Shown here: positions 27,892-54,457 of the stretch, piece by piece | Layout of the letters: each line of letters opens with the position of its first letter | Numbering within the stretch: the stretch's first letter is position 1 | Source of the DNA: Parafrankia sp. EUN1f | Lineage (GTDB): Bacteria; Actinomycetota; Actinomycetes; Frankiales; Frankiaceae | Direction of reading: 5' to 3' | NCBI RefSeq assembly: GCF_000177675.1 | Contig: NZ_ADGX01000013.1 | Span: 1 to 64,000 of the forward strand | Length of the DNA stretch: 64,000 bases | The notes under the pieces: model-generated | Database searches by the model: none | Seen by the model: only the letters and a program-made list of their open reading frames with translations | What the model was told of the DNA's origin: nothing | Program-made: the position numbers and the translations under genes

Positions 27892-27925
27892 GAGGATTTC
27901 GGTCGCTGGAACGACGACGATCCTC
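27892..27925 (+). repeat. Dispersed hairpin repeat, copy B
   Basis: GAGGAT..GTCG pairs with CGAC..ATCCTC around a short CTGGAA-type loop, with a mismatched internal loop. It is followed by GACTCTTCGAG, and about 70 bp later by copy C, which has the same CACTCTTCGAG tail. Confidence 0.75.
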
Positions 27926-27987
27926 GACTCTTCGAGTGGCGGCTTCGAGTCGTGGTCGAGGCTGGCGTTTGCCGCCGGGCAAGACCT

Positions 27988-28020
27988 GAGCCTTTGGTCG
28001 CCGGAACGACCAAAGGCCTC
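27988..28020 (+). repeat. Dispersed hairpin repeat, copy C
   Basis: CCTTTGGTCG (27991-28000) pairs perfectly with CGACCAAAGG (28007-28016) around CCGGAA; flanking GAG/CTC extends the stem past a one-base bulge. It is preceded by GCCGGGCAAGA, the same spacer seen before copy A at 54.4 kb. Confidence 0.8.
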
Positions 28021-28474
28021 CACTCTTCGAGCGGTGGCTTTGAGCTGCCGCCGGTTCGCCGGCCAACCCGGTTCGCCCCGTTATCGATCTTGGCTGCATT
28101 CTCCACCGTGTCGCTGGATGCGATCCGCCGACGGGCTGGATCTGGCCGGCTGCCAGCCAGCTCCTGCGGGCTGCCAACCGGCCCCCTGACCGGGTCTTGT
28201 CTTCGGCGCCGTCCTGGTGGCGCTCGCCCGCCTGAGTGGCCGGCGGGCTTCGGTTGTCGGAACGGTCGAGGTGGCCAAATCAGTCGACGGAATTTCGGTG
28301 GCGGCCTCCCCTGCGCGGCCAAGAATGACACGTAGGCGCATCCGTGCAGGTCAGAGCGTCGGCTATGGGTATTGAAAACGGCTCGCGACGATGCTGGACG
28401 CACGGCCCGCCGGAGCGCATCCGCAGCTGGTAGCCGTGTTGCAGGTCACACCGCGCGCCGTTTCGTGCGGCTTG

Positions 28475-28499
28475 CGGGGAACACTGTGCGCATTCCCCG
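28475..28499. promoter_or_regulatory. Inverted repeat upstream of the oxygenase gene (operator candidate)
   Basis: CGGGGAA (28475-28481) and its complement TTCCCCG (28493-28499) are separated by 11 bp and lie about 90 bp before the start of the accessory cluster, as expected for a dimeric repressor site. The regulator is not identified. Confidence 0.4.
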
Positions 28500-28586
28500 A
28501 ATTCACGGCGGCCTTTCCGGTCGTCGCTGGATTCGCCGGTGGCCAGGCCGCCGTGCCAGGGTGATCGGCGGACGGAAGGATTTCCA

Positions 28587-29486
28587 ATGGGCGGTACCGC
28601 GGCCGCGAACGTGAAAGCGACTTCGCCTTCGGCAATCGAGGACGTGATCGACACGGATCGCTATCCGGTGTGCTCGTGGCCCGACGGGGCCGCGGGTGAG
28701 CTTGTCGGGGACGTCCGCCGGCAGCTCGCGGATACCGGGTGCTGCGTGCTGCCGGATTTCGTCCGACCCAGCCTGCACGCCCGGCTGCGCGACGAGTGCG
28801 CGACGCTCGCGCCGTCGGCGCACTACGACGCCGAGACCGTCAACGTGTACAACATCGACGCCGACGCGGAGCTGCCGCCGGGGCATCCCGGCCGGGTCGG
28901 AATGCTGCGCGGCAACGCCTTCGTGGCTCGCGACCGGATCCCCTCCGACCACGTCATCCACCGGCTCTACGTCAGCACCGCGTTCCAGTCGTTCGTCGCG
29001 GCCTGCTTCGGGCTACCGGCCGTGCACGAGCTCGCCGACCCGCTTTCGGGCCTGTGCCTGAACGTCGTCGTGCCTGGTCAGGAACACCCCTGGCACTTCG
29101 ACACGAACGAGTTCACCGTCAGCCTGCTCACCCAGGGCGCGGACGCCGGTGGTGTGTTCGAGTACTGCCCGGGAATCCGATCCGCCGAGGCGGAGAACTT
29201 CGACGACGTGTCCGCCGTTCTCGCCGGCGGAACCGAAGGGGAGCGTTTCGTCCACCGGCTGGACCTGCGGCCCGGTGATCTCCAGCTCTTCCTCGGGCGC
29301 TACTCGCTGCACCGGGTGAGCCGGGTCGGCGGCGCCACCCAGCGGCACAGCGCGATCTTCGCCTACAGCGAGCGACCCGGGGTGGTGGGCAGCGTGTCGC
29401 GCACGCGGCAGCTGTTCGGCCGGGTCCTGCCGGAGCACCTGGCGGCGGCACGCCGCGCCGTGCGGGTGGACGGACTGCTCGACTGA
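28587..29486 (+). CDS. Fe(II)/2-oxoglutarate-dependent oxygenase (HalD/BesD-like fold family)
   Basis: A 299-residue double-stranded beta-helix oxygenase. The iron motif is HFD (His170, Asp172), with the distal His242 in YSLHRVSRV and a 2-oxoglutarate-binding Arg shortly after (TQRHSAIFAY). The blocks FTVSLLTQ..GGVFEYCPGIRS and LRPGDLQLFLGRYSLHRV recall the family of free-amino-acid halogenases/hydroxylases (HalD/BesD), but the Asp that halogenases replace by Gly is present, so a hydroxylase is expected. GGAAGGA lies upstream of ATG 28587. It is the first gene of a three-gene set with a methyltransferase and a carnitine-type acyltransferase. The substrate is unknown. Confidence 0.75.
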   Translation: MGGTAAANVKATSPSAIEDVIDTDRYPVCSWPDGAAGELVGDVRRQLADTGCCVLPDFVRPSLHARLRDECATLAPSAHYDAETVNVYNIDADAELPPGHPGRVGMLRGNAFVARDRIPSDHVIHRLYVSTAFQSFVAACFGLPAVHELADPLSGLCLNVVVPGQEHPWHFDTNEFTVSLLTQGADAGGVFEYCPGIRSAEAENFDDVSAVLAGGTEGERFVHRLDLRPGDLQLFLGRYSLHRVSRVGGATQRHSAIFAYSERPGVVGSVSRTRQLFGRVLPEHLAAARRAVRVDGLLD

Positions 29487-29602
29487 GTTCTCCGCGCGGT
29501 CGGTCCGCGCATTCACCTCGCATCTCGGCCAGGTACCCGGCGGATCATCCAGCTTTCGCCGAGCGGATGGATCCGCTGAGCGGAAGGAGAGGAGCGCCAG
29601 CC

Positions 29603-30445
29603 ATGGAATTCGACGCGACTGGAAAGGTCTCGCTCGAACACATCTACACGCAGCCGGATCCGCGGGCCTATTTCCGTACGCTGCGGGTGCTGGATTATCA
29701 CATTCCGCAGCTTGCCAAGCCGTACTTCTCGAAGGTCGCCGACGAGTGCCGGGAGACTCGCCCCGGCCGGCCCCTGCGGGTGCTCGACGTCGGCTGCTCC
29801 TACGGGATCAACGCGGCGCTGCTGAAGCTCGACGTCTCCATGGACGAGCTGTACGACCGGTACGACGGAACCGACGTCGGGCGGTCCCGGGCGGAGCTGG
29901 TCGCCCGCGACCGGGCGCTGGCCCGCGACCGCGGCGGGCTGCACGACGTCGAGGTGATCGGCCTCGACACGTCCCAGCCGGCGCTCGCCTACGCGTACGA
30001 GGCAGGCTTTCTCGACGGTGCCGTGCACGCCGACCTGGAGACCCGGGACCTGACCGAGCCTGAGCGTGCCCTGCTCGCCGACGTCGATCTGGTCGTCTCC
30101 ACCGGCTGCCTCGGCTATGTCACCGATCGCACGCTCGCCCGGATCGTCGCGGCTGTCCGTGACGGCGGCCGGCGCCCGTTGCCGTGGATGGCGCATTTCG
30201 CGCTGCGGATGTTCCCGTTCGACCCGATCGCCGAGCTCCTCGCCGGGTACGGGTACCAGACGGAGGCGGTGGGCCGGCTGTTCGAGCAGCGACGGTTCGT
30301 CTCCCCGCGGGAGCAGGAGCAGGTGCTGGCGACGCTCGCCGGGGTCGGGGTGGACCCGGCTGGCCTGGAGGCTGATGGCTGGCTGTACGCCCGCCTGTTC
30401 GTCTCACGTCCACCCGAACCGGACCCGGGCGTGGCCACGCTGTGA
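29603..30445 (+). CDS. SAM-dependent methyltransferase-like protein
   Basis: A 280-residue protein with a class I methyltransferase fold. Motif I is LRVLDVGCSYGINAALLK (near residue 55), an acidic motif II lies in YDGTDVGRS, and VDLVVSTGCLGYVTD corresponds to motif IV. The N-terminus (HIYTQPDPRAYFRTLRVLDYHIPQ) is unlike common families I can name. GGAG precedes ATG 29603 at 8-nt spacing; an upstream start at 29567 is less supported. It begins 116 bp after the oxygenase and 163 bp before the acyltransferase, on the same strand, so the three probably share a pathway. The acceptor (N, O or C) cannot be told. Confidence 0.75.
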   Translation: MEFDATGKVSLEHIYTQPDPRAYFRTLRVLDYHIPQLAKPYFSKVADECRETRPGRPLRVLDVGCSYGINAALLKLDVSMDELYDRYDGTDVGRSRAELVARDRALARDRGGLHDVEVIGLDTSQPALAYAYEAGFLDGAVHADLETRDLTEPERALLADVDLVVSTGCLGYVTDRTLARIVAAVRDGGRRPLPWMAHFALRMFPFDPIAELLAGYGYQTEAVGRLFEQRRFVSPREQEQVLATLAGVGVDPAGLEADGWLYARLFVSRPPEPDPGVATL

Positions 30446-30551
30446 GAGCGTTTCGGGGATTACTCCCGGTATCTGATTGTTTCGCAACAGCCTGACCTGC
30501 CTGGCGCGACCAGAACCGCGACCGGACACCGCGCAAGCGAGCCACCGCACG

Positions 30552-30602
30552 ACCAGAGCCACCACGCAACCAGAGACACCACGCAACCAGAGACACCATG
30601 CA
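30552..30602 (+). repeat. Three 17-bp tandem repeats before the acyltransferase
   Basis: ACCAGAGACACCACGCA three times with one or two changes. The array ends 6 bp before the chosen start codon, so it lies in the ribosome-loading region. Confidence 0.85.
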
Positions 30603-30608
30603 ACCGAG

Positions 30609-32567
30609 ATGAGGATGACGCTGCGCATGACCGTCCAGACGAGCCAGGGACCGGCCGCGAACAGCGCCGCCACAGCGGCCGCCGCCGCTGCCGCTGGCAC
30701 CTTCGACCATGAGGACGACCTGCCGCGCGTTCCGCTGCCCACCCTGGAGGACAGCTGCGCGCGGTTTCTCCAGTGGTGCGCCCCGCTGCTGTCCCCTGAG
30801 CAGCTCGCCGCGACCGAGGCCGAGGTGGCACGCTTCCGCGCGCCGGACGGCCCGGGCCCCCGGCTGCACGCCGAGCTCGCCCGCTACGACGTGAGCGACG
30901 GCGTGCACAGCTGGCTGGACGAGTTCTGGCCGGCCCGCTACCTCGGTCGCCGCGACCGGATCGCACTCAACGCCAACTTCATCTTCCTGTTCCGCACTGC
31001 CGCCGAGGCCGAGACCGGGGCCGCCACCGAGGTCGCCGGCGACGGCGACGGCTCGACCCCCTCCACCGCCGCGGGGCCGCAGCTGGGACGTGCCGCCGGC
31101 CTGATCGCGGCCGCGCTGGACTACAAGGTGCGCCTGGACGCGGAGCGGATCCCGCCGTTGCTGCGCCGCGGCCAGCCGCAGTCGATGGTGCAGAACCGGT
31201 ACCTCTTCTCCACCACCCGCATCCCCGGCCTGGTGCAGGACACCGTCCGGGTGCCCTACAGCGCCGAGTGGCCGGGGCCGTCCGACGCCCGCCACATCCT
31301 GGTCTTCCACGGCGGCCGCATGTTCCGGCTCGACGTCCTCGGCCCGGACGGGTCGCCGCACACGCTCGACGAGCTGACCGCCGGCCTCGCCGCGGTGCGG
31401 GCGGCCGCCCCGGCGCCGGCGCCGGACGAGACCGCCGTCGGCCATCTGACGACCAAGGCCCGGGCCGACTGGGCGGAAAGCCGCGCCGCGCTGCTCGCGC
31501 TCGACCCGGCGAACCAGGCCGCGCTCGACGAGGTCGAGACGGCGCTGTTCTGCGTGTGCCTCGAGGCCGTGGCCCCGTCCGATGAGCTCGCCGCCTGCGA
31601 TCAGCTGCTTCATGGCAGCGCCGCCGGCCGCTGGTATGACAAGGCCGTGTCGCTGATCGTTTTCCCCGACGGCCAGGCCGGCATCAACGTCGAGCACTGC
31701 GGGCTCGACGGCACCACCATCCTGAGTTTCGTCGACGAGCTGCTCGCCGCGCCCGCCGCCGAGCTGTCGGCCCGCTCCGGGGCCCGCCCGCAGGGGCAGC
31801 CGGCGGTGCGTCCGGTCGAGTTCGTGCTCGACGACGCGCTGCGCGCGGACATCCGGGCGGCGGCGGAGTCGTTCGCCGCGTTCGGCGCCGGCACCGACTC
31901 GGTGACGCTGTCGTTCCCCGACCACGGCGCGAGTCGGGCCAAGGCTTTGCGGATCTCCCCGGACGCGTTCGTGCAGATGGCCTACCAGCTCGCCCACCAC
32001 CGGGCGAAGGGGTTCGCCGGAGCGACCTACGAGTCGATCGCGACCAGGCAGTGGCGGTACGGACGCACCGAGGCGATGCGCGTTGTCACGCCGGAGGTCC
32101 TGACCTTCGTCACGACGATGAACGACCCGGCGGCCGACGCGGACGCCCGCCGCGCCGCGCTGCGCGACGCGGCGGCCGCGCATGTGCGCCGCGCCGGCGA
32201 GTGCCAGCGCGGCGAGGCGCCCGAGCAGCATCTGTGGGAGCTGGCGTTCATCCAGCGCCGGGCCGGTGCCGAGCTGGGCGTGCCCGAGCCGTCGCCGCTG
32301 TACGAGACGCCCGGCTGGCTGGTGACGCGGGACGACTACCTGAGCACCAGCTCCGCGCCGTCGGAGAGCATCCGGTACTTCGGTTTCGGCTCGACCAGCG
32401 GCCACTGCATCGGCGTTGCCTATGTGCTGCTGCCCGACACGCTGAACATCTACCTGAGCACGCCGCGGCCGGCCGCCGCCGGGATGCACGCGTTCGCCGA
32501 TCGGCTCCGCGAGGCCCTGCGCGAGCTCGACGAGCTGCTCGCCGGTGACCCCGCGGCAACCGGTTGA
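30609..32567 (+). CDS. Choline/carnitine O-acyltransferase family protein
   Basis: A 652-residue protein matching the carnitine/choline acyltransferase fold, which moves acyl groups between CoA and a hydroxyl on a quaternary-amine alcohol. The catalytic His is in INVEHCGLDGTT (near residue 363). TYESIATRQWRYGRTEAMR corresponds to the family's TYExxSTRxFxxGRTExxR signature that helps bind CoA and substrate carboxylate, and YFGFGSTSGHCIGVAY matches the C-terminal active-site strand. Such enzymes are usual in eukaryotes and uncommon in bacteria. ATG 30609, 30615 or 30627 are all possible. It is the third gene of the accessory cluster, which suggests acylation of a product that the first two enzymes hydroxylate and methylate. 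Confidence 0.85.
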   Translation: MRMTLRMTVQTSQGPAANSAATAAAAAAAGTFDHEDDLPRVPLPTLEDSCARFLQWCAPLLSPEQLAATEAEVARFRAPDGPGPRLHAELARYDVSDGVHSWLDEFWPARYLGRRDRIALNANFIFLFRTAAEAETGAATEVAGDGDGSTPSTAAGPQLGRAAGLIAAALDYKVRLDAERIPPLLRRGQPQSMVQNRYLFSTTRIPGLVQDTVRVPYSAEWPGPSDARHILVFHGGRMFRLDVLGPDGSPHTLDELTAGLAAVRAAAPAPAPDETAVGHLTTKARADWAESRAALLALDPANQAALDEVETALFCVCLEAVAPSDELAACDQLLHGSAAGRWYDKAVSLIVFPDGQAGINVEHCGLDGTTILSFVDELLAAPAAELSARSGARPQGQPAVRPVEFVLDDALRADIRAAAESFAAFGAGTDSVTLSFPDHGASRAKALRISPDAFVQMAYQLAHHRAKGFAGATYESIATRQWRYGRTEAMRVVTPEVLTFVTTMNDPAADADARRAALRDAAAAHVRRAGECQRGEAPEQHLWELAFIQRRAGAELGVPEPSPLYETPGWLVTRDDYLSTSSAPSESIRYFGFGSTSGHCIGVAYVLLPDTLNIYLSTPRPAAAGMHAFADRLREALRELDELLAGDPAATG

Positions 32568-32601
32568 TCCGGGGCGACGTGATCCGTGCCGACAGCGACT
32601 C

Positions 32602-32678
32602 TCCCAGTCGCTGTAGGGCCCCAGCCGCTGTCGCCCCAGTCGCTGTCGCCCCAGTCGCTGTCGGCCTAGTCGCTGTCG
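32602..32678. repeat. Five 15-bp tandem repeats spanning the 3' end of the inositol phosphatase gene
   Basis: Unit CCCCAGTCGCTGTCG, five copies. The fifth copy has TAG where others read CAG on the plus strand; on the minus strand this makes the inositol monophosphatase stop codon (32666-32668). Without it the frame would run on as repeated WGDSD pentapeptides. Confidence 0.85.
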
Positions 32679-33580: not shown

Positions 33581-33670
33581 CCTGTCAAGGCGTCGGCCCG
33601 CCGCGGGGTCCGCCCGTGTCCGCCGCCCACCGTGCCGCCGCCGCCGTCGGGAGGGCGATCGTGCGCCCCG

Positions 33671-33676
33671 TAGGAT
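33671..33676 (+). promoter_or_regulatory. -10 box of a leaderless valS promoter
   Basis: TAGGAT ends 7 nt before the GTG at 33684. No Shine-Dalgarno is visible, so a leaderless message is likely. Confidence 0.5.
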
Positions 33677-33683
33677 TGGGCGC

Positions 33684-36344: not shown

Positions 36345-36489
36345 TGGCGGCGCGACCGCCGGCCGGCTGACGCCAGCAGGCCGGCGGTCTCCTGGGCGGT
36401 CGTGTCGCTGGGCGGCGATGTTTCCTGGGCGGTGGCGTTTCCTGAGTGGCAGTGGTCGCGGGCCGGGGGCGGGTGCCGGGGCCATCGGG

Positions 36490-36495
36490 CAGGAT
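36490..36495 (+). promoter_or_regulatory. Possible leaderless -10 of the gamma-carbonic anhydrase-like gene
   Basis: CAGGAT ends 6 nt before GTG 36502. It differs from TANNNT at the first base only, and the same bases could instead act as a weak ribosome site. Confidence 0.3.
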
Positions 36496-36501
36496 GGAAG
36501 C

Positions 36502-37020: not shown

Positions 37021-37086
37021 CGCCGCGGCCGCGGTACCGGATCTCGCCGGGGGCGCTGCACGTCGCCGGGGCACAATCCGAAGCGC

Positions 37087-37122
37087 TGAGGATCGTGGTC
37101 GTCGCAACGCCCACGATCCTCA
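37087..37122 (+). repeat. Dispersed hairpin repeat, copy D
   Basis: TGAGGATCGTGG pairs perfectly with CCACGATCCTCA (12 bp) around a 12-nt loop. It shares the GAGGAT..GG framework and CAACG-type loop with the other copies but has CGT where copy A has TTT, changed in both arms. It is 66 bp after the carbonic anhydrase-like gene and may act as its terminator. Confidence 0.85.
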
Positions 37123-37261
37123 GGTCCTGCTCGGTATCAGCGGTACTGAGGCGTACCACCAGGCCACATTCGGGGCACCAGACCACATCGAGGCACCGAG
37201 CCCGCGCAGGGTAGGCCGGGTGCCCCGACGAGTACCGCTTCGGGACGAGTGCCGCCCCGGG

Positions 37262-39147: not shown

Positions 39148-39486
39148 TCCGAGGTGCGCTGATCAGCGAGCCTCTTCCCGCTCACGGTCCGCGGTCTGAC
39201 AGGCCGCGGGTCCGAGTCGACGGTGGAAAGGGCTCAGCGGTGTGGCCGAGCGCGGAACAGTCCGGTAACGGCGCTGGAACGCTCGGCCATCCACCGGTGG
39301 CGCTCCGCGAGTTGTCCCATCCTGGGCGGGATCAGTGGTGGCGGGGGTCCGTCCACCGCATAATCCCGGTTCAGGGCGCTGACGCATGGCCACCGGGTGG
39401 GACCTTCCTCACCCGTTGGCCCGGTGACGTCCCGAGGTTCGGATTCCGTCGCCCGGCTACGGGAACGGTCGATGATCGGAGGAGCC
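39148..39486. other. Gap between DUF3710 gene and OB-fold gene
   Basis: 339 bp. CCGCGG repeated around a short loop near 39188-39213 could be a weak terminator. CATAAT near 39359 is a possible -10. No credible gene on either strand. Confidence 0.4.
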
Positions 39487-39872: not shown

Positions 39873-39903
39873 GCGGCGCCCGGAGGACAGGACGTCTTCA
39901 CCT

Positions 39904-40767
39904 ATGCCACCAGCTCTCCCGTCGGATCCCTCTCAGCCGCGCCCGGAGCCGGAGCAGGCTGACCTCGGTGTGGCGGCGAGGGGCCCGCTCGCGGGCTCCA
40001 CGGAGCTGACGGGCGGTCCGATCGCCCGGGTCGCCCGTGCGGGGGACCGGAGCCGGGCCAGGGGCGGCGACAGGGCCAGGGGCGGCGACAGGGACGACGC
40101 TGCCGACGGCGCGGAGCCGGTTCTGAGCCTCGCCGACGCCATCGGTGGGCCGCGCGGGATCATCGACAGCGCGATTCCGACGGTTGCCTTCGTGACGGTC
40201 AACGCCGAGAGCGGGCTGACCGCGGGGATCATCGTCGCCATCGCGGCCGCCGTGGGGCTGGTCGTCCTGCGCCTGGTTCGGCACGAGCCGCTTCAGCAGG
40301 CGTTCTCCGGGCTCTTCGCGGTCGGGTTCGCCGCCTTCATCGCCTCCCGGACAGGGCACGCGGAGGGGTTCTTCCTCCCCTCGATCTTCAAGAACGCCGT
40401 CTGCTCCGTCGCCGGGGGTGTCTCCGTGCTGGTGGGCCGGCCCATCGGCGGGTATGTGATGGCCGGGTTCGACAAGCGTTACGCGGACTGGCGGGAGAAT
40501 CCGGCCGTCCGCCGAGCGGCGGTGTGGGCCACCCTGGTCTGGATCGCCGTGTTCGGGGTGCGGTTCGTCGTACAGGGCCTGCTGTACCTCGCCGGCGAGA
40601 CGGGGTGGCTCGCGGCGGCGAACATCGCGCTGGGGCTGCCGCTGTTCGGAGTCGCCGTGCTGGCGACCTTCGCGATCGTGCGGCGGCTCGTGCCGGCGAA
40701 CGAGATCCCTGCGGGGGACGGGGTTCCCGTGGCGGACGAGCCGGCCACCGCCTCTCGACCGGACTGA
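39904..40767 (+). CDS. DUF3159 integral membrane protein
   Basis: A 287-residue membrane protein of DUF3159. After a polar N-terminus of about 75 residues come LSLADAIGGPRGIIDSAIPT, helices around TAGIIVAIAAAVGLVVLRLV and GLFAVGFAAFIASRTG, the conserved GFFLPSIFKNA, then RPIGGYVMAGFD and two further helix pairs: about six membrane spans. Function unknown; the gene is conserved beside the OB-fold and TrkA genes in actinobacteria. It is 31 bp after the OB-fold gene and convergent with trkA. Confidence 0.88.
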   Translation: MPPALPSDPSQPRPEPEQADLGVAARGPLAGSTELTGGPIARVARAGDRSRARGGDRARGGDRDDAADGAEPVLSLADAIGGPRGIIDSAIPTVAFVTVNAESGLTAGIIVAIAAAVGLVVLRLVRHEPLQQAFSGLFAVGFAAFIASRTGHAEGFFLPSIFKNAVCSVAGGVSVLVGRPIGGYVMAGFDKRYADWRENPAVRRAAVWATLVWIAVFGVRFVVQGLLYLAGETGWLAAANIALGLPLFGVAVLATFAIVRRLVPANEIPAGDGVPVADEPATASRPD

Positions 40768-40792
40768 ACCGCCAGGCAGCCCACCGCGAGAC

Positions 40793-40838
40793 CTGGCCGG
40801 CGAGTTCAGAGCCAGCCCGGGCTCAGACCGCCGGCCAG
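40793..40838. terminator. Bidirectional terminator candidate between DUF3159 gene and trkA
   Basis: CTGGCCGGCG (40793-40802) pairs perfectly with CGCCGGCCAG (40829-40838), and AGCCCGGGCT (40814-40823) can fold inside. It sits between two convergent genes. A 14-bp direct repeat (GGCGAGTTCAGAGC) overlaps it. Confidence 0.65.
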
Positions 40839-40851
40839 AACACAGGCGAGT

Positions 40852-44579: not shown

Positions 44580-46144
44580 CCGGGCGTCCGCCGCGCCGTG
44601 GCGGCCCGAACCGCCGTCGGACGGACCAGGGCGCCGCGCCGGTACGGGCCGACCGGGCGGCCCCGCGAGACCAGACGCCGTCGCGGGGGCAGGCGCCGCC
44701 GCGAGACCAGGCAGCGTCGCGAGACCAGACGCCGTCGCGAGACCAGACGCCGCCGCGCCGCCAGGCACGCCCGCGGGCCCAGACACCCCCACAGCTTCCG
44801 GCGCCCCCGGACGAGCTGGTCGAGCTGGAGATCGGACCGGTGGCGCACCACGGCCTGTGCGTCGCGCGGGCTGACGGGCGGGTCGTGTTCGTCCGGCACG
44901 CTCTGCCGGGCGAGCGGGTCCTGGCGCGGATCACCGACGTCTCCCACGACCGCTACTGGCGGGCGGACGCGACGGAGATCCTGGTCGCCTCCCCGGACCG
45001 GGTCGAGCCGCCCTGCCCGCACGCCCGCCCCGGCCAGTGCGGGGGGTGCGACTGGCAGCACGCGACACTGGACGCGCAACGTCGCCTCAAGGCCACGGTG
45101 GTCGAGGATTCGCTGCGCCGCATCGCGGGCCTGGAACGCGCCGTGCGGGTCGAGCCACTGCCGGCGAAGGCGGACGACGGTCTCGGCTGGCGGACCAGGA
45201 TGCGTTTCGCGCGTACTCCCGACGGCGGGGTGGGGCTGCGCGCGCACCGCTCCCACCAGGTGGTCGCGACCCCGGACTGCCGAATCGCGCACCCGTCGCT
45301 CGCCCAGGTGATCGCCGACCCCGTGTTCCTCCAGGGCCCGGCCGCGCCGGAACGGACCGGGCAGGCCGTCGACCTCGTCGCGACGAAGCTGACCGCGTCT
45401 GGGACGACGTCCGACGCGGTGGCCTTCTCCACCGGTTCCGGCAGCTGGCAGCTGGTACGGCTGCGTCCCGAGGACGGCCTGGAGCCTGTCGCGCCCGAGG
45501 CCGGCGCGGCGGAGGAACCCGTCGAGGTGGCGGGACCTGCCGGTGTGGCGGAAGCCGTCGAGGTGGTCGAGACGGTCGAGGGGCGTTCGTTCCGTCTTGA
45601 GCCGGGAGTCTTCTGGCAGGTCCACCCGGCGGCGGCCGCGACGCTGGTCGACGCCGTGCGGGCGGCGGCCGCGGCGGCGCCCGGTGAGACGGCCCTCGAC
45701 CTCTACAGCGGTGCCGGGCTGTTCGCGGCGTTCCTCGCAGAGGCGGTCGGGCCGACCGGTCGGGTCATCGCGATGGAGTCCGACGAGGCCGCGGTGCGTT
45801 CCGCGGCCCGGAGCCTCGCGGATCTGCCCTGGGTGTCGCTGCGTTCGCTGCGGGTGACGCCCGCGACCGTGCGCGGTCTGATCGGCGGGTCCGACCGGCA
45901 GGGCGGCGGTGTCGACGTCGCCGTGCTCGACCCGCCGCGTACCGGCGCCGGCCGTGAGGTCATGGCGGCGCTCCTCGCGCATCGGCCGCGCCGGGTGGTG
46001 TACGTGGCGTGCGACCCCGCGGCACTCGCGCGAGATGTCGCGGCTGCCGCGGAGGAGGGCTACCGGCTTACCGCGCTGAGGGCTTTCGACCTTTTTCCCA
46101 TGACCTCACATGTGGAGTGCGTGGCGACGTTGGAGCCGGCGTAA
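44576..46144 (+). CDS. TrmA/RumA-type RNA (uracil-5-)-methyltransferase with TRAM domain
   Basis: A 522-residue class I SAM methyltransferase of the TrmA/RlmC/RlmD type. A TRAM domain (ELEIGPVAHHGLCVARADGRVVFVRHALPGERV in part) starts near residue 82; a Cys cluster (CPHARPGQCGGCDWQH) may bind an iron-sulfur centre. The methyltransferase core has ALDLYSGAGLFAAFLA, VLDPPRTGAGREV, and YVACDPAALARD with the nucleophilic Cys. The N-terminal 80 residues are hexapeptide RDQTPS repeats. GTG 44576 overlaps the KimA-like stop. The tRNA or rRNA target is unknown. Confidence 0.93.
   Translation: MTGRPPRRGGPNRRRTDQGAAPVRADRAAPRDQTPSRGQAPPRDQAASRDQTPSRDQTPPRRQARPRAQTPPQLPAPPDELVELEIGPVAHHGLCVARADGRVVFVRHALPGERVLARITDVSHDRYWRADATEILVASPDRVEPPCPHARPGQCGGCDWQHATLDAQRRLKATVVEDSLRRIAGLERAVRVEPLPAKADDGLGWRTRMRFARTPDGGVGLRAHRSHQVVATPDCRIAHPSLAQVIADPVFLQGPAAPERTGQAVDLVATKLTASGTTSDAVAFSTGSGSWQLVRLRPEDGLEPVAPEAGAAEEPVEVAGPAGVAEAVEVVETVEGRSFRLEPGVFWQVHPAAAATLVDAVRAAAAAAPGETALDLYSGAGLFAAFLAEAVGPTGRVIAMESDEAAVRSAARSLADLPWVSLRSLRVTPATVRGLIGGSDRQGGGVDVAVLDPPRTGAGREVMAALLAHRPRRVVYVACDPAALARDVAAAAEEGYRLTALRAFDLFPMTSHVECVATLEPA
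44669..44770 (+). repeat. 18-bp tandem repeats at the 5' end of the RNA methyltransferase gene
   Basis: Units of the type CGCGAGACCAGACGCCGT, about six copies, in frame, encoding RDQTPS-like hexapeptides in a disordered N-terminal extension. Confidence 0.8.
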
Positions 46145-46974: not shown

Positions 46975-48933
46975 GTGTCGCTTCTGTCGACGATCGACAG
47001 CCCGCAGGACGTCAAGCGCCTCGACCACGAGGAACTGGCGGCGCTCGCGGCCGAGATCCGTGATTTCCTCATCCATGCGGTTGCCCGTACTGGCGGCCAC
47101 CTCGGGCCGAATCTGGGCGCTGTCGAACTGACTCTCGCAATTCACAGGGTTTTTGACTCACCATTTGACCGAGTCCTGTGGGACACCGGACATCAGTCAT
47201 ATGTCCACAAGATTCTCACCGGTCGTCGGGATGCTTTCGACCGCCTTCGCCAGCGCGGCGGGCTGTCGGGCTACCCGTGCCAGGCGGAGTCCGAGCACGA
47301 CATCATCGAGAACTCGCACGCCTCCACCGCCCTGTCCTACGCGGACGGGCTGTCGCGCGCCTACGCACTGCGGGGGGAGAACCGGGCCGTCGTCGCGGTC
47401 GTCGGTGACGGCGCGCTGACCGGCGGCATGTGCTGGGAGGCGCTGAACAACATCGCCGCCTCCGACCGGCAGGTCGTCATCGTCGTCAACGACAACGGCC
47501 GGTCCTACTCGCCGACCATCGGCGGGCTGGCCGACCACCTGGCCTCGCTGCGCCTGGCGCCCGAGTACGAGCAGGTCCTCGACGTCGTCAAGCAGGTGCT
47601 GGGCCGTACCCCGCTGGTCGGGGCGCCGCTGTTCGACGCCCTGCACGGCATCAAGCGGGGCATCAAGGACGTCGTGACCCCGCAGGGCATGTTCGAGGAC
47701 CTCGGCCTCAAGTACGTCGGCCCGATCGACGGCCACGACGTGGTCGCGATGGAGTCGGCGCTGCGCCGGGCCAAGGACTTCGGCGGCCCCGTGATCGTCC
47801 ACGCGATCACCCGCAAGGGCTTCGGCTACCCGGCGGCCGAGCAGGACGAGGCCGACAACTTCCACGCGGTCGGCGTCATCGACCCGGCCACCGGCAAGCC
47901 GGTCGGGGCGGCCAAGGGCACCACCTGGACGTCGGTCTTCTCCGACGAGATCGTCCGTATCGGTGCGGAGCGCCCGGATGTCGTCACGATGACGGCCGCC
48001 ATGCTCCAGCCGGTCGGCCTGAAGGCGTTCGCGAAGGCGTTCCCGGACCGGGTCTTCGACGTCGGCATCGCCGAGCAGCACGCGGTCACCTCCGCGGCGG
48101 GCCTGGCGATGGGCGGCCTCAAGCCGGTCGTCTGCATCTACGCGACCTTCCTGAACCGGGCCTTCGACCAGGTCCTGATGGACGTGGCGATGCACCGCCA
48201 GCCGGTGACCTTCGTGCTCGACCGGGCCGGCATCACCGGTGAGGACGGCGCGTCGCACAACGGCATGTGGGACATGTCCTTCCTGCAGGTCGTGCCCGGC
48301 CTGGCGATCGCCGCGCCGCGTGACGAGGCCACCCTGCGCGCCGAGCTCGACGAGGCGATCTCCAACGTCGACGGGCCGACGGTCGTCCGCTACCCCAAGG
48401 GCAAGATCGCTCCGGAGACCCCGGCGATCGACCAGGTCGGCGGGGTGGACGTCCTGTACCGGGCGCCGGCGGTGGCGCGCCACCGGGAGGTCCTGCTGGT
48501 CTCCGTCGGGGCGATGGCCACGACCTGCCTCGACGTCGCCGCCCGTGTCGCGAGCCAGGGCATCGGCATCACCGTCGTCGACCCGCGGTGGGTCAAGCCG
48601 CTGGACCCGGCGCTGGTCGACCTGGCCCGTGAGCACGACCTCGTCGTCACCGTCGAGGACAACGGCCGAGTCGGCGGCGTCGGCGCGTCCGTCGCGCAGC
48701 TGCTGCGTGACGCCGACGTCGACGTCCCGCTGCGGGAGTTCGGTGTAGCCCAGCGCTTCCTCGACCACGGCAAGCGTGACGAGGTCCTCGCCGAGGTCGG
48801 TCTGGCCCCGCAGGACCTCGCCCGCAAGGTGATCGAGGCCGTCGCCCGGCGCCAGAACGCGCTGGTGGACGCCGAGGTCGGCGCGTCCGGCGCGGACGAG
48901 TCCAACCAGACGCCCGCCGCCGGCCAGGCCTGA
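46975..48933 (+). CDS. dxs: 1-deoxy-D-xylulose-5-phosphate synthase
   Basis: DXS (652 residues) condenses pyruvate and glyceraldehyde-3-phosphate in the first step of the MEP isoprenoid path. Thiamine diphosphate motif [17 protein letters not shown], the active-site His in [16 protein letters not shown], and [15 protein letters not shown] with the catalytic Glu are intact. The C-terminal transketolase-like domain is complete; the last ~20 residues are variable. GTG 46975 has GGAGGGAG upstream and gives the normal N-terminus [16 protein letters not shown] 5 x 19-bp repeat and a strong hairpin follow. Confidence 0.97.
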
Positions 48934-48941
48934 TCGCCATC

Positions 48942-49036
48942 CGGCAGGCATAACGCACTGCGGCAGGCATAGCGCACTGCGGCAGGCATAGCGCACTGCG
49001 GCAGGCATAGCGCACTGCGGCAGGCATAGCGCACTG
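48942..49036 (+). repeat. Five 19-bp tandem repeats after dxs
   Basis: CGGCAGGCATAGCGCACTG five times; only the first unit differs (ATAACG). It starts 8 bp after the dxs stop and runs into the terminator stem, so transcripts read through it. Confidence 0.95.
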
Positions 49037-49078
49037 CGGCAACCGGGCCACGTCTTGCTCACGTGGCCCGGTTGCCGC
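49036..49078 (+). terminator. Strong terminator hairpin after dxs
   Basis: A perfect 18-bp stem (GCGGCAACCGGGCCACGT and its complement) with a 7-nt loop CTTGCTC. It separates dxs from the YbhN-like gene, whose own promoter follows. Confidence 0.85.
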
Positions 49079-49186
49079 GCCTGCGGCCCGGCCGGCGCCT
49101 CGCTCGCGGCACGGCTGGCCTTTCTGACCCGGCTGACGTCTTCTGCCACCGTGATGGGCGGCCACGACGGCGGTGCGCCGACCCCA

Positions 49187-49192
49187 TAGTCT
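49187..49192 (+). promoter_or_regulatory. -10 box of a leaderless ybhN-like promoter
   Basis: TAGTCT ends 6 nt before GTG 49199, downstream of the dxs terminator. Confidence 0.5.
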
Positions 49193-49198
49193 GACCAG

Positions 49199-50328
49199 GT
49201 GAGTCATGTCGACGGGGCGGGCCCGCGAGGGAAGAAGCAGGCCGCGCAGCCTCGCCGCCGGGGCGCCCGTTGGTGGGCGGTGCGGGGCGCTCTGCTGCTC
49301 GCGGCGGTGCTGCTGGTCGTCGCGCTGGTGGGGCAGTGGAACGACGTCCGCGACTCGGTCGGCCAGCTGACGGCGGCCGGCCTGGCCGGGTCCGCCTTCG
49401 CGACGGTGCTCGCGGTCGGCGCGACGGTGCTGTCCTGGCGGTCGGTGCTCGGTGGGCTCGGCGCGTCGTTGCCGCTGCGCGCGACCATTCGCATCTTCTG
49501 CGTCGGTCAGATCGGTAAGTACATCCCGGGCAGTGTGTGGCCCGTCCTCGCGCAGATGGAGCTCTCCCGCGACTACGGGGTCTCCCGGCCGAAGTCGGCG
49601 TCGGCGAGCCTGGTGGTGCTGGCCCTGGCGGTGCCGTGCGGGGGAGTGACCGCGGCGGCGACCCTCCCGGTCGTCTCCCGCTCGGCGCTCGCGGACTACT
49701 GGTGGGCGCTGGCGGTGGTGCCGCTGTTCGCGGTGGTTCTGCACCCGCCCGTGCTTTCGAGGCTGCTCGACCTCGCGTTCCGTCTGCTGCGCCGTCCACC
49801 GCTGGCCGAGCCGCTCACCGCACGGCCCATCCTGGCCGGTGCCGGCTGGCTGATCGCAGGCTTCGTCTGGTACGGAGTCGGGACCTGGCTGCTGGTGCGC
49901 GACCTCGACCCGGCCGTCGGCGGGGCCCGGCTGGTGGCGCTGTGCATCGGCGCGTACGCACTGGCCTGGACCGCCGGTTTCCTGGTGCTGGTGCTGCCGG
50001 CGGGGCCGGGGTGCGCGAGGCGGTCCTGGTGCTGGCACTGGCCCCGGCGCTGGCCAGCGGCCCGGCCACCCTCATCGCGGTCGTCGCCCGGCTGCTGGCC
50101 ACGATCGCGGACGTCATCTGGGCACTCGTCGGGGTCGCGCTGCGGCCCCGCGGCACGTCGACGGCGGGCCGCCACACCGACGCCCACGCCGGTGCCGGCA
50201 TCAGCACGGATCTCGCCGAGGCGGTCGAGCCCGGCTCCGCCCGCCTCAGCGCGCGGCAGACGGGCGGAACCGGGCCGGGGAGCCCGGGAGCCGCGGCCGT
50301 CTCCGGGACGGCACCTGGCGGCCGCTGA
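49199..50328 (+). pseudogene. YbhN/MprF-type flippase-domain membrane protein, one frameshift
   Basis: A multi-spanning protein of the lysylphosphatidylglycerol-synthase transmembrane (YbhN/UPF0104) family. FCVGQIGKYIPGSVWPVLAQMEL near residue 100 (core GKYIPGSVWP) is the family hallmark. The first frame runs to FLVLVLPAG, then turns to Arg/Cys-rich noise; one frame over, VREAVLVLALAPALASGPATLIAVVARLLATIADVIWALVG (starting VREAVLVLALAPAL) restores the last helices and ends at 50328. One missing G in the G4 run at 50002-50005 explains it. A sequencing error is likely. It is alone between dxs and fadB. Confidence 0.8.
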
Positions 50329-50468
50329 GGGCCACCAGAAGCCACCGAGGAGCACCGCCGGTGCCCGCCCCCGCGCAGGCGGTTCCTCGGTGGCCGGAGA
50401 CGGGTCCGAGACGGGACGGGTCCGAGACGGGACGAGTCCGAGGCTGGCCGGGCCCGGGGCGGGACGGG

Positions 50469-52622
50469 TCAGGAGATGGTGGCGGTTCCGGGCGGGCTGA
50501 ACCGCCGGCCGGTCACCCGCTCGCTGATGCCGGTGCGGTCCAGGTAGGGCGTGATGCCGCCGAGGTGGAACGGCCAGCCGGCGCCGAGGATCATGCACAG
50601 GTCGACGTCCGCCGGCTCGGCGACGACCTTCTCGTCCAGCAGCAGTCGGATCTCCTGCGCGAGCGCGGACAGCGCCGCGTCCCGGACCTGCTCCGGGCTC
50701 ATCGCCCCACCGGCGTCGGAACCGGTGCTTTCGTGGACGATTGCGGCGGCCTTCGGGTCGACGATCTGCCGGCCCTGCGGGTCCGTCGTGTAGAAGCCGC
50801 CGAGCCCCGCGGCGACCAGCCGGGCCAGGCCCGCCGGTGAGCGGAACCGGTCCGGTATCGCCGTGTGCAGCGTCTCGGCCACGTGCAGGGCGACCGGCGG
50901 CCCGACCAGCGACAGCAGGACGAGCGGCGACATCGGCAGGCCGAGCGGGTCCAGGGCGGTGTCGGCCGTGTCGATCGCGGTGCCGGACTCCGTGGCGGCG
51001 AGCACCTCGCCCATGAAGCGGGTGAGCAGCCGGTTCACCACGAAGGCGGGCGCGTCCGCCACCAGCACGGCGTTCTTCTTCAGCTTCTTGGCGACGTCGA
51101 GGGTGGTCGCGATCGTCGCGTCGTCGCTGCGCGGCGTGCGGACGACCTCGACCAGCGGCAGCACCGCCACCGGGTTGAAGAAGTGCAGCCCGGCGACCCG
51201 CTCGGGATGGGTCAGCTCGGCCGCCATCTCGGTCACCGACAGCGCCGAGGTGTTGGTGAGCAGCAACGTCTCCGGCTTGACGTAGGTCTCCAGCTCGGCG
51301 AGCACCGACTTCTTGATCGCCATGTCCTCGAAGACGGCCTCGATGATGAGATCGGCGTCCGCGAAGGCGTCCTTGGTGAGCGAGCCGGTGACGTTGGCCT
51401 TGAGCCGGTTGGCCCGGTCCGCGGAGATCCGCTTGCGCTGCAGCAGGTTGTCGAACTCCTGGTGGACCCGGGCGACACCGGCGTCCAGGCGGGCCTGGTC
51501 GAGGTCGGTGAGTACCACCGGTACCTCCAGGCGCTGGGCGAACAGCGCGGCGAGCTGGCTGGCCATCAGGCCGGCACCCACCACACCGACCTTCGTCACC
51601 GGCCGCGCCAACGAGCGGTCCGGCCCGCCCACGGGCCGCTTGGCCCGCTTGTTCACCAGGTCGAACGCGTAGAGGCCGGCGACCAGCTCCTCGCTGGCCC
51701 CGAGGTCGGCGAGCGCCGCGTCCTCCGCCGCGTACCCGGTGTCACGGTCCGCGGTCTCTGCCAGCGCCAGCAGCTCGAGCGCCCGGTAGGCGGCCGGTGC
51801 CGCTCCGTGCAGCCGGGCGTCGGCCAGGGTGCGGCCACGTTCCACCGCCGCCGTCCAGGCCGGGCCACGCTCGACGGTCGGGCGGCCCGCGGTGGGATCC
51901 ACCTCGCCGCGCAGGACGCGGCCCACCCAGCGCAGCGCCTCCTCCAGGAAGTCGGCCGGCTCGAGCAGGATGTCCCCGATGCCGAGCTTGAAGGCCTGCG
52001 CGGCGCGCAGCGTCCGGTTCTGGCTCAGCGCGTTGTCGATCATCACGGTGACGGCGTTGTCCGCGCCGACGAGGTTCGGCAGGAGCTGGGTGCCGCCCCA
52101 GGCCGGCACCAGGCCGAGGAACACCTCGGGCAGCGCGAGCGCGGCGATGTCGGTGGACAGCGCCCGGTAGTCACAGTGCAGGGCCAGCTCGAGGCCGCCG
52201 CCGAGCGCGGCGCCGTTGACGAGGGCGAAGGTCGGCACCTTGCGGTCGCCGAGACGTCCTTCGCCGACCCGCCGCAGGGCGGTGTGGCCGAGCTCGCCGA
52301 GCGCGGTGAGCTTGGGCCGTACCTCCGCCGGGTCGGTCAGCGACGACCGGTACGACAGGTCGGCCCCGACGCAGAAGATGAACGGCTTGCCGGTCACCGC
52401 CACCGCTGCGACCGGCGGGTCGTGCGCCTCGATCTCGTCGACCGCGGCGATCAGGGAACGCAGTCCCGCCGGGCCGAAGGTGCTCGGGCGGGTGTGGTCC
52501 AGCCCGTTGTCGAGGGTGATGAGCGCGACGGGTCCGTCCACGCCGGGAAGCCGCGCGTACCGGACATGGGCGTGCGTGACGACCTCGTCCGGATGCTCAA
52601 GAGTCACCGCGGCGCTGCTCAT
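50469..52622 (-). CDS. fadB: Fatty-acid oxidation complex alpha subunit (enoyl-CoA hydratase / 3-hydroxyacyl-CoA dehydrogenase)
   Basis: A 717-residue two-domain enzyme. The N-terminal crotonase part has GKPFIFCVGADLS and ALVNGAALGGGLELALHCD (oxyanion hole). The C-terminal part has the NAD motif KVGVVGAGLMASQLA near residue 345 and the catalytic His in GLHFFNPVAVLPLVEVV. It hydrates enoyl-CoA and oxidises 3-hydroxyacyl-CoA in beta-oxidation. ATG 52622 has GGGAG upstream. It follows fadA after about 100 bp containing GGGGTGC-type simple repeats (52655-52715); the two subunits form a complex. Confidence 0.95.
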   Translation of the reverse strand: MSSAAVTLEHPDEVVTHAHVRYARLPGVDGPVALITLDNGLDHTRPSTFGPAGLRSLIAAVDEIEAHDPPVAAVAVTGKPFIFCVGADLSYRSSLTDPAEVRPKLTALGELGHTALRRVGEGRLGDRKVPTFALVNGAALGGGLELALHCDYRALSTDIAALALPEVFLGLVPAWGGTQLLPNLVGADNAVTVMIDNALSQNRTLRAAQAFKLGIGDILLEPADFLEEALRWVGRVLRGEVDPTAGRPTVERGPAWTAAVERGRTLADARLHGAAPAAYRALELLALAETADRDTGYAAEDAALADLGASEELVAGLYAFDLVNKRAKRPVGGPDRSLARPVTKVGVVGAGLMASQLAALFAQRLEVPVVLTDLDQARLDAGVARVHQEFDNLLQRKRISADRANRLKANVTGSLTKDAFADADLIIEAVFEDMAIKKSVLAELETYVKPETLLLTNTSALSVTEMAAELTHPERVAGLHFFNPVAVLPLVEVVRTPRSDDATIATTLDVAKKLKKNAVLVADAPAFVVNRLLTRFMGEVLAATESGTAIDTADTALDPLGLPMSPLVLLSLVGPPVALHVAETLHTAIPDRFRSPAGLARLVAAGLGGFYTTDPQGRQIVDPKAAAIVHESTGSDAGGAMSPEQVRDAALSALAQEIRLLLDEKVVAEPADVDLCMILGAGWPFHLGGITPYLDRTGISERVTGRRFSPPGTATIS

Positions 52623-52724
52623 GCTCCGTCTCCCATTCGGGCGAAGATTTCGGGGTTCGAGGTGCGGGGGTCGGGGTTCGGGGTGCGGGGTTCGGGGTGC
52701 GGGGTGCGGGGTGTGAGTCACCGG

Positions 52725-53930
52725 TCAGGCGGCCTGGTGGTGCGGGTTCTCCCAGATCGTCGTCGCGCCCATGCCGATGCCCACGCACATCGCGGTCAGG
52801 CCGTAGCGGACCTCGGGGTGCTCCTCGAACTGTCGGGCGAGCTGGGTCATCAGGCGCACGCCGCTGGAGGCGAGCGGATGCCCCAGCGCGATCGCGCCGC
52901 CGTACGGGTTGACGCGCGGGTCGTCGTCGTCGATGCCGAAGTGGTCGAGGAACGCGAGCACCTGCACGGCGAACGCCTCGTTCAGCTCGAACAGCCCGAT
53001 GTCGTCGATGGTCAGGCCGGTGCGGGCGAGCGCCTTCTCCGTGGACGGGATCGGGCCGATGCCCATCACCTCGGGGGAGACACCCGCGAAGCCGAAGCCG
53101 ACCATGGTCATCTTGCGGCTCAGGCCCAGCTCGGCGGCGACGTCGGCCGCCGCCAGCAGGCATCCGGTCGCGCCGTCGTTGATGCCGGCGGCGTTGCCCG
53201 CGGTGACCCGGCCGTGCGGCCGGAACGGCGTCTTGAGCCCGGCGAGGCCCTGCAGCGTGGTGCCGGGGCGCGGCGGCTCGTCCGCGGTGACCAGCTCCCA
53301 CCCGTTCTCGACGTGCCGCGCGGCGACCGGGACGAGGTCGGGCTGGATCTGGTTGTTCGCGTAGGCCTTGGCCACCTTCTCCTGCGAGGCGACGGCGTAG
53401 GCGTCGGCCCGCGCCCGGGTGATGCCCGGGTAGCGGTCGTGCACGTTCTCCGCCGTCATCCCCATGACCAGCGCGGACGGGTCGACGAGCTTCTCGGAGA
53501 CGAACCGGGGGTTGGGGTCGACCCCCTCACCCATGGGATGGCGCCCCATGTGCTCGACGCCGCCGGCGATCGCGACGTCGTAGGCACCGACCGCGATGGC
53601 GGACGCGGTCGTGGTCACCGCCGTCACCGCACCCGCGCACATCCGGTCGATCGCATAGCCCGGGACGGATTTCGGCAGGCCGGCGAGAATGCCGGCGGTC
53701 CGCCCGATCGTCAGGCCCTGGTCGCCGATCTGGGTGGTGGCCGCGATCGCCACCTCGTCGACCCGCTCCGGCGGCAGGCCGGGATTGCGGCGGATGAGCT
53801 CCCGGATGACCTTGACCACCAGGTCGTCCGCCCGGGTCTCGCTGTAGACGCCCTTCGCCTTGCCGAACGGCGTCCGCACGCCGTCGACGAACACCACATC
53901 ACGCACCGAACCCCGCGCGCTTACGAACAC
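52725..53930 (-). CDS. fadA: Acetyl-CoA C-acyltransferase (thiolase)
   Basis: A 401-residue thiolase completing the beta-oxidation complex with FadB. Catalytic parts: the acyl-accepting Cys in DRMCAGAVTAV, ELNEAFAVQVLAF, the His in GGAIALGHPLASSG, and the second Cys in AMCVGIGMG. GTG 53930 has GGAGG at 5-nt spacing; the longer frame to 54077 is not conserved. It is first in the fadA-fadB operon, with an inverted-repeat operator candidate about 120 bp upstream. Confidence 0.95.
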   Translation of the reverse strand: MFVSARGSVRDVVFVDGVRTPFGKAKGVYSETRADDLVVKVIRELIRRNPGLPPERVDEVAIAATTQIGDQGLTIGRTAGILAGLPKSVPGYAIDRMCAGAVTAVTTTASAIAVGAYDVAIAGGVEHMGRHPMGEGVDPNPRFVSEKLVDPSALVMGMTAENVHDRYPGITRARADAYAVASQEKVAKAYANNQIQPDLVPVAARHVENGWELVTADEPPRPGTTLQGLAGLKTPFRPHGRVTAGNAAGINDGATGCLLAAADVAAELGLSRKMTMVGFGFAGVSPEVMGIGPIPSTEKALARTGLTIDDIGLFELNEAFAVQVLAFLDHFGIDDDDPRVNPYGGAIALGHPLASSGVRLMTQLARQFEEHPEVRYGLTAMCVGIGMGATTIWENPHHQAA

Positions 53931-54049
53931 ACCGGCCTCCTCGACGCCCTTGTCCGTCGACGGCGCGTGTCCGACCCGCCGCCACCGGTGTCGGGCCGGA
54001 TGCCTGAAGGTGTGTGCCGGCCGCGACGGGCACCAGCCTACGACAGGAG

Positions 54050-54067
54050 TTACCCGTGGGTAGGTAA
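54050..54067. promoter_or_regulatory. Inverted-repeat operator candidate upstream of fadA
   Basis: TTACCCGTGGGTAGGTAA contains TTACC/GGTAA arms and a nested TACCC-GT-GGGTA palindrome. It lies 120 bp before the fadA GTG, a position and form typical of TetR-family fatty-acid regulators. The regulator gene is not in the window. Confidence 0.45.
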
Positions 54068-54353
54068 GAGGTGTCACGATCGAGGGCGGATCGGTATTCG
54101 TATTTTCGATGTAAAATCCGGCGCCCTCGGTGAACGCTGAGTCGCCGCCGGGCCCTGGTGGTACGTCTCAGTAGTTCCTTCTCCGCGCCTGGTCACGGTG
54201 CGTGATGTGGGTGCCTGCCAACCGGATCTCGGGGGCGCTTTCCGGCTGCGGACGGGATGGCGGTCGAGATGGCGGGTGTGATCGGCCTCGGTGTCGTGGT
54301 GTCGCTGCTTCGGGCGGCCGCCGGGATTGCCGCTGCTGCCGAGCAAGGATGAA

Positions 54354-54387
54354 GGATTCTGGTCGCGGGAGAGCCTGGCGCAGAATC
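54354..54387 (+). repeat. Dispersed hairpin repeat, copy F
   Basis: GATTCTG (54355-54361) pairs with CAGAATC (54381-54387); it has the AGGAT..GGTCGCGGG framework but a longer 19-nt loop. It stands about 40 bp before copy A, so the pair mirrors copies B and C. Confidence 0.65.
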
Positions 54388-54425
54388 GCGAGCCTCGTGT
54401 TGGCGTTGCTGGCGGGCAAGAGTTG

Positions 54426-54457
54426 AGGATTTTGGCTGTGAGAACGACCAAAATCCT
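54426..54457 (+). repeat. Dispersed hairpin repeat, copy A
   Basis: AGGATTTTGG (54426-54435) pairs perfectly with CCAAAATCCT (54448-54457) around a 12-nt loop CTGTGAGAACGA. The preceding GGCGGGCAAGAG matches the spacer before copy C, and the following TACTTTTTGTCG resembles the CACTCTTCG tails. Confidence 0.85.

Follow-up and report, generated by a model that had tools for sequence, protein, structure and literature searches.

Hairpin units and an insertion junction in the window

The window analysed here comprises the first 64,000 nucleotides of contig NZ_ADGX01000013.1 of Parafrankia sp. EUN1f. It contains several copies of a dispersed hairpin family which are, as argued below, probably the landing sites and in part also the cargo of small non-autonomous transposable elements. 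The genome of the window is called the own genome in the following, and throughout it is compared with one congener, G019; C and L numbers are our handles for contigs and loci, and C384 is the contig holding the window. An earlier note on this DNA had described six stretches, A to F, as copies of one hairpin design with covarying stems, and these sequences are indeed present at the six positions. The family goes far beyond chance. Its unit is a palindrome of about 50-60 nt, GCAAGAnnTGAGGATnnnGGTCG-6 nt-CGACCnnnATCCTCAnnTCTTGC, and is therefore longer than the design first proposed. The core reads GAGGAT nnn GGTCG, 6 nt, CGACC nnn ATCCTC, and is extended by the outer arms GCAAGA / TCTTGC or TCTTCG.

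Two units, B (27879-27938, forward strand, 64.5 bits with the covariance model R1) and C (27975-28033, forward strand, 45.6 bits), form a pair, and the spacer between them (27939-27974, forward strand) resembles by eye the G+C-rich spacers of other pairs. Such pairs, about 84-96 nt apart, are frequent in the family, as are mosaic groups. D is found at 37075-37134 on the reverse strand (55 bits, compared with 54 bits on the forward strand), and A at 54412-54471 on the forward strand (38.1 bits) inside an inserted element. The RNA fold z-scores of A (-5.38), D (-5.30) and C (-2.21) agree with their description as hairpins. B clearly belongs to the family by its model score, but its fold is weak (z -1.56) because the middle stem is unpaired. 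Neither the window nor 14 related loci gave an Rfam match at gathering score.

Copy F is of a different kind. Only the left half of a target hairpin, stopping in the loop, is present at 54339-54370 (forward strand), and the corresponding site of G019 is intact (GAAGGATTCTGGTCGCGGGAACGACCAGAATCCTTC). The last four bases, GGGA (54367-54370), are the candidate target sequence. Directly adjoining is an inserted element resembling a miniature inverted-repeat transposable element (MITE) at 54371-54550 on the forward strand, which consists of the left end GAGCCTGGCGCAGAATCGCGAG, an a-arm, hairpin A and a b-arm. It is delimited by an end-motif match at 54371-54392 and by the break of the alignment with G019 at 54370-54550; its right end was not found. 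The 60 nt of F fold like shuffled sequences (z +0.13) and the intact counterpart in G019 reaches z -10.2. The ATTCTG/CAGAAT pairing that had been listed for F as a covarying stem is formed between the target sequence and the end of the inserted element, so that F is an insertion junction, a left arm joined to an element end, and no hairpin.

Mobile elements in the hairpin loops

A recurrent element-end motif, CTCGGGATTCTGCTACGCGCTC (read outward), adjoins half hairpins. A genome-wide search for the end pattern CTCGGGATTNTGCNACNNGCTC, with at most 2 mismatches, gave 79 matches in the own genome and 42 in G019; the reversed controls gave 1 match each. A half hairpin lies within 40 nt outside 55 of the 81 distinct end matches in the parts of the genomes that were read, 38 of them at one single offset (end, 5 nt, CGACC); among random genome places 15% have a half hairpin within 40 nt. 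Exactly 5 nt past GGTCG start 46 of 108 unique ends, 37 of 83 for one end type and 9 of 25 for the other.

Ten distinct elements with both ends could be identified, with lengths of 282, 269, 308, 274, 266, 159, 273, 281, 288 and 361 bp; an eleventh end pair, at L249 (225 bp), was excluded as a mispairing. The typical length of these main elements is about 270 bp, and their imperfect 22-bp inverted ends (GAGCCCGTCGCAGAATCCCGAG ...) are identical at 15-19 of 22 positions. All ten contain a family hairpin (that of L021 is known via its model match), and recognisable halves of the host hairpin are found on at least one side of nine. The four bases flanking the elements agree completely in two cases (TCTG and TCCA), at three of four positions in four, at two in two and at one in the remaining two.

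A second element of 140 bp has four copies that are almost identical (135-139 of 140 positions); they reside in four different hairpins and are flanked by four different perfect 4-bp duplications, CGGA, CCTG, TCCG and CGCA. Its inverted ends are identical at 14-16 of 22 positions, and both halves of the host hairpin are recognisable at three of the four places, at L247 the left half only. Taken over all 14 elements, perfect 4-bp target duplications are found in six, three of four bases match in four more, and one or two of four in the remaining four. Four loci (L246, L248, L249 and L251) allow the host loop to be read completely, and in each the duplication consists of the four central bases of a six-base loop. 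The elements measure 138-361 bp, and the longest stop-free frames of the ten main elements span 53-102 codons. With terminal inverted repeats, a target duplication and a short length without transposase gene, they are MITE-like.

By eye, the c-arm end of an element of the composition b-hairpin-c (..GGCGCCACCACGCGACAGGCC; L236 of G019) is like the ends of the 140-bp element (GAGCCTGTAACAAAATGGCGCC..; L246-L249 of the own genome), which suggests that the two end types are interchangeable. A derivation of the element ends from hairpin arms, a hairpin then being two abutted ends, found no support, as 383 of 2000 shuffles, and for the other arm 556 of 2000, equalled the score.

The comparison with G019, which is about 96% identical to the own genome and collinear with C384 over 76 kb, shows the same sites in different states. 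The internal alignment breaks of C384 are located at 27809-28229 (B/C), 37071-37244 (D), 54370-54550 (F/A) and 40720-40843 (no hairpin) of the window. Breaks containing hairpins are thus three of four in C384; the figures for C391 and C393 are three of four and two of five. At the B/C and D loci G019 carries different hairpins. At the F/A locus G019 (L073) has an intact GAAGGATTCTGGTCGCGGGA|ACGACCAGAATCCTTC and no A, where the own genome has the element from 54371 onwards. The opposite situation is seen at L064:19631, a hairpin intact in the own genome, for which G019 (L114) has an element end 5 nt past the arm and a truncated other side, and at L062:17948, likewise intact, for which G019 (L111) has a split hairpin with one end truncated. 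At one orthologous hairpin the element carried by the own genome (L121/L229) differs from that carried by G019 (L236).

Orthologous intergenic places often have hairpins in both genomes with differing flanking arms, and some hairpin pairs are conserved, e.g. L117:7636 and L133:7622. Clustering of the arms gave group a with 68, b with 50 and c with 22 members, and the arms are variously combined; these clusters are connected components at a score of at least 20 and not clean types, and cluster b includes a few a-like arms. For 20-40 kb of C393 synteny in G019 amounted to one short edge stretch and two weak matches. At L115:2363-4404 of G019 two inverted copies of a b-arm hairpin flank an open frame of 318 aa, which may be DUF559-like, and the syntenic place of the own genome holds another element.

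Hairpin loops are also entered by an insertion sequence (IS). The window starts inside an IS1182-like IS, whose right-hand part covers positions 1-446 on the forward strand, shares its sequence with C149 up to 446 and terminates there with CCAGCAGGGT; the opposite end, ACCCTGCTGGTTTATTC, is found in L105. The C-terminal fragment of its DDE transposase is encoded at 47-430 on the forward strand (PF13751, E 6e-21; NF033551, IS1182, E 2.7e-17). Its NF033551 score is below the cut-off because the transposase match is a fragment; this family model was matched twice, each time partially and under the curated threshold (E 2.7e-17 and 1.7e-24), and none of the copies read is full-length. Next to the IS lies E (447-479), the right half of a family hairpin. 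The left half, with CGTTTCAG, is found at the end of contig C338 (L105), so that the description of E as a half hairpin was correct and the IS lies between the halves. The 8-bp target duplication CGTTTCAG occupies 447-454, and the IS ends, ACCCTGCTGGTTTATTC and its complement, stand in the hairpin loop with CGTTTCAG on both sides. Ends of this kind of IS are in hairpin loops at three of four junction sites (E, C353 and C96), not at C149. In G019 no hairpin is found at the E locus.

Copy number, placement and conservation of the stem

The earlier note had made its proposal depend on further copies in the genome, and these are abundant. The core pattern with at most 2 mismatches has 153+139 matches in the own genome, compared with 1+0 for the reversed pattern. 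A longer pattern with at most 1 mismatch is found at 95 places of the own genome and 123 of G019, and at most twice in each of the 391 others of 393 genomes of the class; 26 of the 393 have any match at all, and the reversed-pattern control gave 0 in all 393. In genomes other than these two the matches seem for the most part to be due to chance. The covariance-model search that had been proposed for the own and related genomes gave at least 150 R1 matches in each of these two. Among 35 genomes, three beyond G019 have 6, 2 and 1 matches and 30 have none; the congeners G017, G018, G020 and G021 gave no R1 match. Of the weak matches inspected, the six in G014 are core hairpins, while G027 shows a hairpin of other sequence and G011 a GTCGTC-rich stretch. 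A sample of 593,850 bp from the own genome contained 29 copies (0 in the reversed sequence at the final threshold), which would scale to about 457 copies, a rough estimate since several of the sampled contigs were already known to contain matches.

From these searches a set of 60 own and 57 G019 copies, not including F, was assembled. Their context was determined for copies with a score of at least 15 (59 own, 56 G019) by means of a home-made gene finder, which called 80% of bases coding. None of these copies lies inside a predicted gene. In the own genome 24 are located between convergent, 28 between tandem and 6 between divergent genes and 1 at an edge, compared with 8.8/31.4/17.9 expected by intergenic length (chi-square, p 3e-8). 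The numbers for G019 are 21, 29, 5 and 1, with 6.8/31.8/16.4 expected (p 6e-9). The median distance from a hairpin to a gene 3' end is 135 bp in the own genome and 125 bp in G019.

The claim that structure rather than sequence has been kept was followed with more copies. The first 17 gave weak covariation support. For the tests with a Fitch/tree null, 105 distinct 60-mers with a score of at least 40 were taken from the 117 copies of both genomes. None of the 1596 single column pairs reached E<=0.05 under this tree-aware null. The whole stem, taken in sum, exceeds all 300 null sets, both for Watson-Crick cells (1828 against 1414+-79) and for cells changed on both sides (167 against 71+-23). For the four middle pairs, on whose paired changes the earlier note had laid stress, the Watson-Crick total is high and is attained in 4 of 300 null sets; the total of two-sided changes, attained in 55 of 300, shows no such excess.

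Beyond the two genomes, the alignment A3 combines 40 sequences, 21 hand-picked copies from the own genome and G019 and 19 of 23 pattern loci; it is made without the two Streptomyces, the Rhizobium and the Bacteroidetes loci and without window copies C and F (alignment A2 is without A, C and F). In A3, 15 of 23 pairs changed on both sides, with 151 such cells compared with 54.5+-8 in shuffled data. Over the 13 pairs free of the search pattern the two-sided changes number 146 against 34.5+-9, and in the 19 sequences of other genomes alone they number 40 against 13+-3.5, a contrast that is perhaps overstated because the searches favoured pairing and the null re-places changes on the tree. As judged from these alignments, it holds that the stem is kept as a structure overall, also across lineages. 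The covariation claim thus finds support in the totals but, within the two genomes, in none of the single pairs; in the core GAGGAT / GGTCG the sequence itself is conserved. An RNA role of the hairpins is not needed for the explanation.

The 23 pattern loci come from an exact core scan, which may leave out the own genome and near relatives. Fifteen of them belong to the metagenome-assembled genome (MAG) palsa_505, two to the Frankiaceae MAG Chersky.28_11, two to Streptomyces, and one each to SZAS-10, a Dermatophilaceae MAG, a Rhizobium MAG and a Bacteroidetes MAG. With a second model, R2, 70 rows were obtained for palsa_505, 38 for SZAS-10, 9 for LF-bin-300 and 11 for Chersky.28, both strands of one place being often counted. 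Under strict filters and with at most 14 candidates scored per genome, R2 matches 35 of the 393 class genomes; these matches are mixed, some having the core and many being possibly unrelated long hairpins. The outer stems of the other-lineage loci differ, and the arms a-c were not seen in their 60-nt flanks. Among the R2 class matches, L176-L192 are long hairpins with top stems resembling GGTCG..CGACC, some of which by eye lie close behind genes, and that of L192 appears by eye to follow directly after a tRNA-like 3' end; they may be terminators or relatives.

The window contains further repeats. At 39160-39244 a second, unrelated interspersed palindromic repeat is found around CACGGTCCGCGGTCTGACAGGCCGCGGGTCCGAG, which has at least 21 matches in the two genomes, at 75-85% identity. 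Short tandem repeats with units of 18-19 bp, or GGC/AGC-rich runs, are located at 19604-19837, 44651-44785, 48916-49060 and 469-580.

Origin of the hairpins and comparison with known systems

That the hairpins serve as landing sites of small transposable elements and are in part carried by them is the reading that we consider probable. It is built on what is visible in the sequences of both genomes, namely copy number, extragenic placement, element ends, their fixed offset in the loop, 4-bp duplications and sites whose state, intact or split, differs between the genomes. By a staggered cut of 4 bp the main element would enter an existing hairpin of its own family at the centre of symmetry, in the loop; the host hairpin would be split, and the element would bring a new one in its middle. 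Since the element carries the palindrome, each insertion would supply a new target and targets need not run out. Copies would then nest and accumulate behind genes, and the 140-bp element and the IS1182-like element would use the same loops. A DDE transposase acting in trans would be expected to leave inverted ends, a 4-bp duplication and a fixed insertion point at the dyad centre, and such an enzyme may be provided by another element. What is recognised in the palindrome is probably the inverted repeat or an extruded cruciform, and the clustering at gene 3' ends may reflect where targets are tolerated.

Several observations weigh against this reading. An autonomous partner was not found in the own genome, where nine inward end pairs within 3 kb are all 159-361 bp, and no transposase frame was found between end pairs in the part of each draft genome that was read. 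Only 6 of the 14 elements have perfect duplications, and 26 of the 81 end matches have no half hairpin nearby; the 15% control was moreover drawn from random and not from intergenic places. For L219 a clear host hairpin is lacking, and at L255 and L252 a weak left half is all that can be recognised. With strands counted apart, there are 40 intact-arm and 4 element-end matches in 593,850 bp of own sequence, and 33 and 2 in 800,000 bp of G019, so that most hairpins are unsplit. Alignment breaks without hairpin amount to 5 of 13. The splits at F, L114 and L111 each lack one end, and the halves at L111 may come from different hairpins, as the own genome has two at L062.

A selected function could account for part of the picture. 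The hairpins might be bidirectional transcription terminators or stabilisers of 3' ends which are hit by elements as terminators, and the absence from genes, the excess between convergent genes and the short distance to 3' ends given above are what would be expected, as are the stable folds and a stem kept as a whole. We nevertheless regard this explanation as rather unlikely. The hairpins are abundant in two congeners and without match in four, which indicates that they are not needed as terminators; by eye most have no T run, and they are often replaced or split between genomes of 96% identity. The placement itself depends on the home-made gene finder. The mosaic arms and matching stems could also be the product of recombination or template switching between copies in replication instead of transposition. 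The various combinations of arms a, b and c and the position of the junctions in loops would suit such a process, and hairpin-templated repair would likewise be expected to yield paired changes on two sides. However, it predicts neither 4-bp duplications nor fixed offsets nor near-identical 140-bp elements at four unrelated places, and appears improbable.

Least likely of all, in our opinion, are repetitive extragenic palindromic (REP) elements of the known type, spread by a REP-associated tyrosine transposase (RAYT) of the Y1 family. High copy number, extragenic position, palindromic form, the spaced pairs and the targeting by IS are shared with them. On the other hand, Y1_Tnp (PF01797) has 0 matches in the own draft genome, which is 99.13% complete, and an association of the hairpins with RAYT was rejected for this reason. 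G019 has 2 matches, but the four hairpin-free congeners have 4, 3, 9 and 0, and GTAG, GTGG or CGTC stand at the foot of 19 of 107 copies, compared with about 35% of random places.

Under the landing-site reading, the system is seen as a variant of MITE/REP biology in two hosts that are related soil bacteria. The suggestion of a REP/MITE-like DNA element in the earlier note was right in kind, given the high copy number, the extragenic position, the mosaic groups and the link to mobile elements. More tentatively, and with considerable doubt, one may speak of self-targeting or 'homing' MITEs, which would insert at the dyad centre of the palindrome they carry, replace the used target and expand without hitting genes; the core AGGATnnnGGTCG-6 nt-CGACCnnnATCCT, which other actinobacterial lineages have with outer stems of differing but paired sequence, would then point to a wider class of landing pads. 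An element that brings its target along would offer a route by which a genome can gain hundreds of palindromes without gene damage and would explain a possible origin of REP-like palindromes without RAYT. Turnover could be measured at sites that one species has intact and the other split, and if the wider actinobacterial core is homologous, a new superfamily of landing pads would be at hand.

No description of this hairpin family was found in the open-access literature searched, nor, in the limited open-access literature searched, of a MITE inserting into its own carried palindrome, and the main text of a survey of Frankia IS (PMC2770080) does not contain 'palindrom', 'MITE' or 'hairpin'. REP, bacterial interspersed mosaic elements (BIME) and REPIN with RAYT are likewise short palindromes in more than 100 copies, extragenic, grouped and frequent IS targets, and REP superfamilies carry GTAG/CGTC tags (PMC3733652). 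In contrast, the own draft genome is without Y1 match and the hairpins are without enrichment of these tags, and the elements with which their spread is connected have inverted ends and 4-bp duplications. The IS at E matches the IS1182 family partially and inserts in hairpin loops; its ends (ACCCTGCTGG) and 8-bp duplication are unlike those of the miniature elements, and it is therefore not their evident parent. ISRm22, ISPsy8, ISPpu9/10, IS1397 and IS621 insert into REPs, ISRm22 at the axis of palindromy with 6-bp repeats (PMC1525189). Precise insertion into a palindrome is common to these IS and our elements, but here the insert is a non-coding miniature which carries the target palindrome. 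QMITE2 of Coxiella is a MITE carrying a GTAG REP that is targeted by IS1111 (PMC10969869). Bacterial MITEs and QMITE2 are likewise small, with inverted ends and target duplications and mostly intergenic, and the palindrome of QMITE2 is a target of transposition. Compared with QMITE2, the elements of the hairpin family would differ in that they themselves insert into the palindrome they carry, which gives rise to nesting.

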